From: Paragorgia papillata
Taxonomy: Eukaryota; Cnidaria; Anthozoa; Scleralcyonacea; Coralliidae
DNA: 64,000 bases
Assembly (NCBI GenBank): GCA_035771165.1
Contig: JAWNZC010000087.1
Coordinates: forward strand, 6,365,001-6,429,000
Direction: 5' to 3'
Part shown: positions 40,801 to 55,651 of the stretch, in pieces
Position numbering within the stretch: the first letter of the stretch is position 1
Layout of the letters: the number at the start of each line of letters is the position of its first letter
Position numbers and translations under genes: made by a program
The notes under the pieces: generated by a model
What the model was told of the DNA's origin: nothing
What the model saw: the letters and a program-made list of their open reading frames with translations, nothing else
Database searches by the model: none

Positions 40801-43800
40801 CACTGGAAACAGTCAGAGCAGCCTCCCACAACGTGAAGAAAAAGAAAGATATTTTAGTGAATCGTACGATATTAAATTTGATGACAACGGGTTGAGTAAG
40901 TTGTGGTCAACATGCCGTGGCTTCAAATGCACGCAGTTTAATTGAGCTCAAAGCCCCATTTCTACAAGTTTAAAACAAAAAAGTGTCGTTAAAATTTAAG
41001 AAAACCAACTAAAGACTGACAATCGATAAAATCATTTTGCAGCAATAGGGCAGATTTTGCAGAAATTGACAATATTTGCATGTCGTCGCCGCAATGAAAT
41101 TTGTAGCATAATCATGTCAAATTTTATTGTAAGATCTGAGTGAGACAAAAAGACTGATTATATATTTCTATGTACAAACGGAATTATACATAAATTTAGC
41201 ACAACATTGTGGCAGTTAAGAGGTCTTGCTCGACATAAGACAGAATCTGAGTAGGTTTTAAAGACAGCACTAACTAGTAAACAAGTCGTCGGATGAAAGG
41301 AATAAATACATAATTTACCCATTACTACAATTTTCCCATTACGAAATACCTCTCCGATATCAAAAGCAGTAATGGAATAAAAGAAAACCAGCATTTAAAT
41401 TTGGGGAAGAAGGCAAATTTTGAGTTTATAGTCGATCAAACGTTCGCTGTCAATTTGACTCCAATGCGGCTTCTTCGTACTATCAATTCGTCTTCGATAT
41501 TTATGCACCTTCCTGGCTAAAATGTCTTCTTTCACTTATCAGAAGAACGTCAGTGTCTCCACTAATTGGACAAGATAGTTTAACACTCTGGTTGACCGAC
41601 AGATTGTTAGTAATTAAATCTTGAAGATATCTTGGTCGGTATACCTTCTCCACATTTTCAAAATTTCGCCACAGATGATCACAAAACGAAATGAGCCCGC
41701 GATATTTTTTAACAGAGCAGACAAAATTCCCTGCTGTTGTCGTGGTGATGAAATGTCTTCCTTTAAATAATAAATGACCAACTTTCTTTTCACAAGTCTA
41801 AATCTAGATATGATAGGTTTAACTCCAGGATTATCCGTTTTTGTTGTGCTATCCTGATACTATTATTTTTTTATTCAATGCATTGTATAGGAAAGTCGAC
41901 CACTTCACTTTGTGTTGTTACGCCGAGAAAGCAGTACCAGGTGTTTCTTGTACATCGCTTCAAGGCAGCGGCTTATCAAGTTGTGACGAATTGCTTAAAA
42001 ACACATTTCTTAAGTACTTAATTTGGGTCTTTGGGGCGATTGCTTGTGCAGGAAACTTGGGTGTAGTTTTGTGGAGGATAATTGCAAAGGATAAAGGCCA
42101 AGTGAACTCATTTCTTTTAACCAATCTTGCGGTAGCCGATTTCTTAATGGGAGTTTACATGTTGATGATAGCTTACAAAGATACTGTGTGGCGAGGTGTT
42201 TACTTTAAACACGATGTTTCTTGGCGAGCAAGTACTCTTTGTAGCTTTGCCGGTGTTCTTTCAATACTATCTAGTGAAGTGTCTGTCTTGACATTGTGCA
42301 TGGTTACACTTGATCGCGTTGTTTGCATTGTCTTTTCAATGCGTTTTGAACGCATTTCCATTAAAAAAGCAGTCATAATTATGATATTTGTATGGCTTTT
42401 GGGCTCGGCTATTTCTGTTGCTCCTTTGCTTAACATTGACTACTTCTTCGATTATGATCAGAATGTGAATATGTTTGGTCGTTCTGGGGTCTGTCTTCCA
42501 CTTCAACTGTCGGTCAAGAGACTAGCTGGTTGGGAATACTCTGTTGTTATTTTCATCTTTCTCAACGGTATCTCATTCTTTTACATGCTTGTGGCTTACG
42601 TTATGATGTATCGAACAGTCGTCAAATCAGCGAGAGCTTCGGGGTCGACACGAACGAACAAAGAGTCAACAATCGCCAAAAGAATGATGTTTATTATCCT
42701 TACTGATTTTTTCTGCTGGTTTCCTATCATCGTAATAAGCATCTTATGCTTAGCTGGAGACTTTCACGACCCGAAGAAGCAAGTCTATGCCTGGATTGCG
42801 GTATTTGTGCTGCCAATAAACAGTTCGATCAACCCATTTCTCTACACATTCTCAGCTCCACTGGTACGCGACAAGATTACTACACTATGGCCTTTTTCAA
42901 AACCTGCTGCAGCAACGCAGCGTGGAAATGCGCAAGGTAGGAACTATAATCGTTTAAGTAAACAGTATATATATTTTCATATATAACTTGTTAATTAAAT
43001 TTGTTAAGGTCTATCGACCTCAATGCAATCCGAGCGCACTTTGAATTTCATATGATACGAAATTCGAGACGTAAAGTAATTATCTCAATTAAGGGGTCAT
43101 ACTAATTAGCGACAAAAGCCGACAAAAACCGACAAAAAGAAAAACAAATACCGACAAAAGAAAAACAACGTGCAAATAACTAAGTGTCTATTCTGTCTAT
43201 GGCTATTAAACGTTGATATGAACTTATTTTTATGTTGTTTCAACATCTCTTGATGTATGTGCATATATAAAAATCATTTTGAATGCTTTTCAAGAAGCCA
43301 ATTCACGGTCAATAAAAATAATTTTGAATGTTTTTCAAGAAGCGAATTCACGGTCAATAAAAATCATTTTGAATGTTTTTCAAGAAGCGAATTCACGGTC
43401 AATAAAAATCATTTTGAATGTTTTTCAAGAAGCGAATGCGATTCACGGTCAATAAAAATCATTTTGAATGTTTTTCAAGGAAGCGAATTCACGGTCAATA
43501 AAAATCATTTTGAATGTTTTTCAAGAAGCGTATGCGATTCACGGTCAGATTATTAGCGATTCAGATTTAGATTGTTCTCGGAGCAAATTAAATACATGTC
43601 GTCTGTGTGCTACACACTGCTAGAAAATTTTGTCGGTAGTTGTCTGTTTTTTGGTCGGTTTTTGTCGGCTTTTGTCGGTTTTTGTCGGCTTTTGTCGGTA
43701 ATTAGTATGACCGCAATTAAGCGGACACACTCAATTGAACCGACACTAACTCGATCGGGTCGTGAAATTTCCTTTTAATATTTACTGTAGCTATATAACG

Positions 43801-55651: not shown

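Follow-up and report, generated by a model that had tools for sequence, protein, structure and literature searches.

Two receptor logics predominate in animals, that of GPCRs and that of kinases, and the closest described relatives of the locus considered here belong to the former. These are the LGRs of type C, RXFP1-2 and GRL101, which possess an LRR ectodomain, a hinge, and a rhodopsin-class seven-helix (7TM) domain. To our knowledge, known LGRs end in short tails. Dead kinase domains are found on the cytoplasmic side of other cell-surface receptor systems, namely JAK JH2 and the receptor guanylyl cyclases, and there they are not attached to a 7TM receptor.

Outside sponges, direct fusion of a GPCR to a kinase is described as rare in animals or missing from them, at least in the relevant passages of two papers (PMC5784254, PMC12716839). 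The first, where it treats GPCR-bigrams, calls them rare or even nonexistent in metazoans, and its GPCR-TKL and GPCR-PIPK of oomycetes and amoebozoans carry a kinase-type accessory domain after the 7TM (PMC5784254). In the results section of the second, a 2025 survey, GPCR-TKs are placed in choanoflagellates and sponges and in no other metazoan lineage, although its discussion includes “GPCR TKL/Ks” in a list of families detected in metazoans for the first time, a statement that sits uneasily with those results (PMC12716839). For Nematostella, the sections of PMC9545775 that deal with LGRs count 13 of them and describe their ectodomains, with 0 uses of the word “kinase”.

The DNA analyzed here, referred to as the window, is a stretch of 64,000 nucleotides from the octocoral Paragorgia papillata (C87:6365001-6429000, within a 618-Mb assembly). 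Its predicted receptor resembles the LGRs of type C in ectodomain, hinge, and 7TM, but the coral receptor family adds a pseudokinase of ~250 residues and a PDZ-type end, and the window gene has a CUB domain and no LDLa in the part seen. The choanoflagellate GPCR-TKL/K and GPCR-TK and the sponge GPCR-TK, as presented in those portions of the survey, likewise combine a 7TM with a C-terminal kinase fold, whereas the coral 7TM is that of an LGR and the coral tail has lost catalytic residues (PMC12716839). The same lack distinguishes it from the bigrams of oomycetes and amoebozoans, whose accessory domains are described as catalytic in the passages concerned (PMC5784254).

Gene structure of the window locus

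The gene model of the window comprises 15 exons and 940 codons with 0 stops, GT/AG sites throughout, and every phase matching (Table 1). Pfam recognizes in the joined protein, in this order, CUB, LRR, 7tm_1, and PK_Tyr_Ser-Thr (1.2e-7). Nine in-phase exons, encoding the CUB domain, an LRR cap, and seven LRRs, lie 5′ of the 7TM exon, and five in-phase exons that encode the kinase-like domain follow it, such that the arrangement of a 7TM and a kinase-fold domain in one chain is predicted here from genomic sequence.

The ectodomain exons were first located by tblastn with homologue ectodomains, which identified single-LRR exons and the CUB exon. The latter aligned with the CUB domain of the homologue P0125 (9e-17), and the next exon joins it in phase; that exon, the LRR cap, has AG/GT sites and phases (1 and 2) that suit both of its neighbors. 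A scan for 72-nt AG..GT exons of phase 2 with an LRR pattern returned seven on the plus strand and 0 on the minus strand, and the pattern yielded 2 and 0 exons when it was read in each of the wrong phases; a whole-LRR pattern was without a match in the window because each exon cuts the repeat. In genomic sequence, these seven phase-2 exons join the 7TM exon, placing LRR ectodomain and 7TM in one gene, and the joined protein matches LRR_8 with an E of 4.5e-62. An LDLa pattern was not found in the window, and the Pfam matches in bases 1-10001 of the plus strand were only CUB and RVT_1. With the N-termini of homologues as tblastn queries, no exon 5′ of the CUB exon was found, neither one for a signal peptide nor the beginning of the gene.

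The original prediction described the 7TM exon as complete and relaxin-receptor-like, and this description was borne out by its PF00001 match and by RXFP1 as its top PDB sequence match (E 3.4e-55), with LHCGR and TSHR also at the top. The core keeps the DR, CWxP, and NPxxY motifs, and the exon is 69% identical to the corresponding region of P0001, a predicted protein of Paramuricea clavata.

Table 1. Features of the predicted receptor gene in the window (positions counted from its first base).
Feature	Positions	Strand	Phase or evidence
CUB-domain exon	4498..4857	+	Phase 1 in/1 out; PF00431 E 5.7e-20, raw frame
LRR N-terminal cap exon	16819..16933	+	Weak tblastn, P0044 cap, E 0.011
LRR exon 1, 72 nt, phase 2	17080..17151	+	LRR-pattern exon scan, phase fit
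LRR exon 2, 72 nt, phase 2	17711..17782	+	LRR-pattern exon scan, phase fit
LRR exon 3, 72 nt, phase 2	19438..19509	+	LRR-pattern exon scan, phase fit
LRR exon 4, 72 nt, phase 2	27367..27438	+	LRR-pattern exon scan, phase fit
LRR exon 5, 72 nt, phase 2	27654..27725	+	LRR-pattern exon scan, phase fit
LRR exon 6, 72 nt, phase 2	28539..28610	+	Scan, phase fit; tblastn P0001 LRR 5e-4
LRR exon 7, 72 nt, phase 2, joins 7TM exon	32858..32929	+	Scan, phase fit
Hinge and complete rhodopsin-class 7TM, motifs DRV/CWFP/NPFLY	41891..42936	+	PF00001 E 1.1e-31
Linker and first strand region of tail	44528..44691	+	Phase 1 in/0 out; 3′ part aligns with P0001
N-lobe, β3 without Lys (LVDVY), helix C region, HRNVLAFLW	45314..45482	+	tblastn P0001 3.5e-11
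N-lobe exon preceding hinge strand	45586..45658	+	Phase 1 in/2 out; aligned through to P0001
Hinge strand (LIVYELP), helices D/E, degenerate catalytic loop VHNALLPENILI	45901..46093	+	PF07714 5.2e-9
Degenerate DFG (LGGLS) and helix F (SNDVEAFG) exon	52060..52257	+	Phase 0 at both ends
Breakpoint, end of homology to complete C67 paralogue	55497..55498		Alignment

The kinase-like tail and its catalytic residues

A phase series of 1, 0, 1, 2, 0, 0 had been proposed for the tail exons; five exons with GT/AG sites and phases 1, 0, 1, 2, 0 stood up, and a sixth, ending at 55651, did not. No exon of the family model beyond the helix F exon was seen in the window copy. When the window protein was aligned with P0001, 8, 16, 16, 16, and 20 of 40 columns were identical around junctions 1 through 5, and the first junction (42936/44528), which sits in a variable linker, constitutes weak evidence if taken alone.

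The proposal that these exons encode a kinase fold was well founded, insofar as sequence matches and predicted models of two homologues can indicate. The joined window tail matches PF07714 with an E of 1.8e-8, and both PF07714 and PF00069 are matched by 8/8 aligned tails (E<=0.1). As whole proteins, P0001, P0042, and P0070 fall below the Pfam curated cut-offs of both kinase families; that of PF07714 is passed by the joined window protein, P0122, and P0123. A profile of the family's tails matched 1591 distinct PDB sequences at E<=0.01, the top rows being a tyrosine-protein kinase that we take to be JAK1 (4.9e-15), followed by TYK2 and JAK3, and with DAPK3, ITK, PKR, ULK2, and BTK among the best 60 of the 1591. 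Searched alone, the window tail matched PDB sequences weakly (best 1.5e-4), with one tyrosine kinase followed mostly by death-associated protein kinases, and with IRE1, TYK2, and two SEC31 rows also among the 60 matches listed. In the AlphaFold model of the homologue P0052 (mean pLDDT 70.4), the 7TM is followed by N-lobe strands, helix C, and a helical C-lobe, and the same elements occur in the model of P0001, where block pLDDT is 58-94 over residues 721-980. Foldseek with the P0052 model returned LGRs first (RXFP1 at the top) and, from rank 22, RET, JAK3, LCK, and ACK1, with E values of 2.6e-8 to 5.7e-8 and TM scores by target of 0.60-0.66; the rmsd is 6.5-8.1 Å over ~300 columns, and therefore only the overall fold is claimed. 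A VIA-align comparison and a further Foldseek list were filled by 7TM rows and bear barely or not at all on the tail. Tyrosine kinases rank first by the family profile and by Foldseek, and death-associated protein kinases dominate for the window tail alone; the ancestry of the tail may be either TK or TKL.

In a MAFFT alignment, the positions of the β3 Lys, the HRD-Asp, and the DFG-Asp are occupied in the window tail by D, A, and G, respectively. Together with the PF07714 match, these residues support the prediction that the window gene encodes an LGR-type receptor with a kinase-fold tail devoid of catalytic residues. Residues were counted over 19 tails, with P0130, P0125, and P0085 dropped as misjoined, fragmentary, or of low complexity. 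The β3 Lys is present in 15/19 (two tails have a gap at this position, the window tail has D, and that of Paramuricea has N), the HRD-Asp in 2/19, and the DFG-Asp in 1/19, whereas all three together, as expected of an active kinase, occur in 0/19; the catalytic-loop Asn is retained in 8/19. Judged by these residues, the predicted tail domain is a pseudokinase.

Occurrence in anthozoans and within the genome

The original prediction had proposed, as a check, to look for the same fusion in LGR genes of other cnidarians, and ten genera of Anthozoa have predicted proteins that carry it: the octocoral Paramuricea and nine hexacoral genera, namely Oculina, Acropora, Nematostella, Exaiptasia, Orbicella, Desmophyllum, Stylophora, Porites, and Pocillopora. 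The best-scoring relative, P0001 of Paramuricea clavata, covers 98% of the spliced query at 54% identity, and both the 7TM tree and the tail tree unite it with the window sequence (supports 0.999 and 1.000). Among the 154 matches listed, which derive from the best 120 of 370 and the best 120 of 914, the sequence past the 7TM (NPxxYT motif) exceeds 150 residues in at least 20 proteins, including P0042 of Nematostella and P0070 of Exaiptasia, and many others are unnamed entries of about one exon in length. In three LGRs (P0132, P0044, and P0119), Pfam detects no kinase domain at E<=0.001, suggesting that some members of the receptor family lack the tail or carry one that is unannotated.

Between the two octocorals, the 7TM is 70% and the tail 40% identical, and between octocorals and hexacorals the values are 54% and ~21%. 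Tail and 7TM identities correlate over 16 sequences (Spearman 0.87, the pairs not being independent), which, together with the lower identity of the tail, would fit a single old fusion and a fast-evolving tail. A protein search with the tail only yielded 0 proteins at E<=0.01 among 3698 candidates, presumably because the tail diverges fast. In the databases, the homologues bear names such as GRL101-like or relaxin receptor 2-like, and some have a precomputed PF07714 annotation. The sequences are therefore already public as protein records, and a description of an LGR/GRL101-kinase or -pseudokinase fusion was found nowhere in the open-access literature examined (titles, opening abstract text, and best-ranked matches).

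The check was also positive for paralogues in the same genome. The 7TM exon has at least 70 genome matches at E<=1e-40 (121/212 candidates scored), which merge to 63 loci, and at least 36 further matches are 89-98% identical to the window exon at the protein level. The catalytic-loop exon has 52 genome matches, 0 of which contain a stop, and all 52, distributed over 27 contigs, are preceded at 2.4-19.4 kb by a 7TM locus in the same orientation. Eleven of the 63 7TM loci are without a tail-exon match; six of these belong to distant receptors, at 32-44% identity, and for each of the other five, all close, inspection by eye found a match to the terminal exon 15-21 kb further 3′ in the same orientation, so these loci probably carry the tail too. 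Joint duplication of receptor and tail in about fifty dispersed paralogues is thereby shown at the level of genomic sequence, although unmerged haplotypes may inflate the count, given that 30 copies of the 7TM (993 nt) collapse to 24 clusters if 4 differences are allowed and to 14 if 10 are. For the tail exon, dN/dS is 0.35 pooled over 15 close copies, with a median of 0.43 against distant copies (20 of the 51 other copies sampled, the pairs not being independent), and for the 7TM it is 0.43 pooled over 25 copies; values of 0.35-0.45 represent only moderate constraint.

A C-terminal [ST]x[hydrophobic] motif is of the type that binds PDZ domains. Such an end was found in 14/16 complete homologues, compared with 4.0% of internal tail positions (184/4592), and it is present from octocoral to sea anemones; P0040, P0124, P0125, and P0130, cut or misjoined, were left out of the 20 homologue tails. 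With the Paramuricea C-terminus as query, a 40-residue exon ending in ETIL-stop was found on contig C351 (E 5.0), ~26 kb past that contig's tail exon, and a second row, on C413 (E 2.3, one stop), matches the C351 exon at 87%. Used in turn as a genome query, the C351 exon gave 56 rows, and in 47/52 tail copies a terminal exon follows in the same orientation at no more than 110 kb, the distance being at most 37 kb in 45 of them. Seventeen of 21 paralogue terminal exons examined end in a class-I PDZ ligand. The remaining four (L070, L074, L075, and L082) end in EFRF or EIRF rather than ETxL or DTxL, and the PDZ-type end may thus have changed in one branch.

Proposed role of the tail and fate of the window copy

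We assign a probability of roughly 0.7 to the explanation, taken as a whole, that the pseudokinase tail of this LGR works without catalysis, as a platform for docking or allostery that is anchored through PDZ binding. The CUB/LRR ectodomain would bind a ligand, probably an insulin/relaxin-like or cystine-knot peptide, and the 7TM core, with its DR, CWxP, and NPxxY motifs, would couple to a G protein. The pseudokinase, which lies some 50-60 residues past the last membrane-side helix in the models of two homologues, would then act as a docking or allosteric platform and not as an enzyme, and the PDZ ligand would anchor that platform into a membrane complex. The role of “signalling scaffold” that had been proposed for the tail is in this sense one that we infer.

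Another means by which a dead kinase domain could operate is as an ATP-binding allosteric switch, as in the receptor guanylyl cyclases or JAK JH2. The β3 Lys kept in 15/19 tails, the catalytic-loop Asn kept in 8/19, the complete appearance of the fold in the models of two homologues, and the lead of presumably JAK1, TYK2, and JAK3 in the profile search would all be congenial to such a switch, but with D at the Lys position in the window, N in Paramuricea, and the DFG-Asp lost in 18/19 tails, we consider it unlikely; in the Lys-keeping hexacoral tails, a nucleotide-dependent switch may operate. More improbable is that the tail is a non-functional relic, i.e., a captured kinase decaying freely since the fusion. 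Its identity is indeed far below that of the 7TM (40% vs 70% between the two octocorals), and the full catalytic set is found in 0/19 tails; yet all 52 tail-exon matches have an open frame, dN/dS is 0.35-0.43 and not 1, the PDZ-type end is shared from octocoral to sea anemones, and the helix F exon of the window is identical to that of the C67 paralogue at 196/198 nt, compared with 95.9-96.8% for the flanking intron, although one of the two differences changes a residue.

Activity by unorthodox catalysis would be easiest to envision for the Desmophyllum and Stylophora tails, which have both the Lys and the HRD-Asp and miss only the DFG-Asp (N). We nevertheless regard an active kinase as very improbable, in view of the 0/3 catalytic residues of the window and of the HNA kept in all 20 other tail-exon copies examined by eye (of 51 that exist). 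The least credible reading is that two adjoining genes, one for a GPCR and one for a kinase-like protein, have been wrongly joined. The joining rests on genomic sequence, the gene models of the homologues are predictions that could share an error, and the first junction falls in a poorly conserved linker (8/40 identical columns), but models from ten genera join 7TM and tail, 52/52 tail-exon copies have a 7TM copy 2.4-19.4 kb 5′ of them in the same orientation, and all splice phases fit, leaving this reading with scarcely any probability.

The non-catalytic platform could also be set in a broader frame. The fusion in other corals and sea anemones, together with its approximately fifty copies in one genome, suggests that animals too can wire a GPCR directly to a kinase-like module. 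The odds are about even, in our estimation, that these receptors constitute an undescribed class of anthozoan GPCR (LGR-pseudokinase-PDZ) that predates the octocoral/hexacoral split and exists in the octocoral as about fifty mostly intact, dispersed genes forming a repertoire for many cues. If so, many peptide or recognition cues would be read through one built-in pseudokinase scaffold, and an LGR-pseudokinase conserved in corals and anemones would show such a fusion to be in use in animals that possess nerves, too. Nematostella and Exaiptasia, which carry it, would offer a tractable case for the role of a dead kinase on a GPCR, and the expansion of the family about fifty-fold in one octocoral could serve the study of coral peptide signaling or recognition.

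As for the window copy itself, alignment with the complete C67 paralogue (L086) extends to 55497, with gaps at 49353-49529, 52489-52851, and 53180-54666. A terminal exon encoding the end of the C-lobe and the PDZ-type end was sought with a homologue profile, pairwise scores, and the DNA and protein of paralogue exons, and nothing convincing was found in 52258-64000 or in the 40 kb downstream; nor did the genome search with the C351 terminal exon return a row at this locus. With homology ending at 55497 and the terminal exon not found, the window copy looks 3′-truncated, i.e., it looks to have lost its terminal exon or to have been separated from it, and it may make a shortened receptor or none. 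The sixth tail exon of the original prediction, reconstructed as 55511-55651, is unsupported, and 47/52 paralogous tail copies have a different terminal exon. The first base of this candidate lies 14 bases past the break. Its score is -2.0 bits with a profile built from the C-termini of homologues and 15-16 with three homologue C-termini, where the best candidates of shuffled queries have a median of 29-34.

Just past the break lies a reverse-transcriptase-like ORF on the minus strand (55916-56353; YADD by eye, no Pfam match), and a mobile element may thus have made the break. Among four minus-strand ORFs at 47273-48308 and 55916-56353, Pfam recognized an endonuclease-RT in one and nothing in three. 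Other intronic sequences of the window include a 389-codon minus-strand ORF at 38843-40012 with an integrase core (PF24764, 1.5e-30), representing a mobile element, and a 394-codon open frame on the plus strand at 35959-37143 that is HECT-like by eye and without a Pfam match. Finally, ~90 copies of the 5-bp unit ACGGC (99% matches) occupy 37847-38298, within ORFs of all six frames, and the window also holds many other microsatellites.
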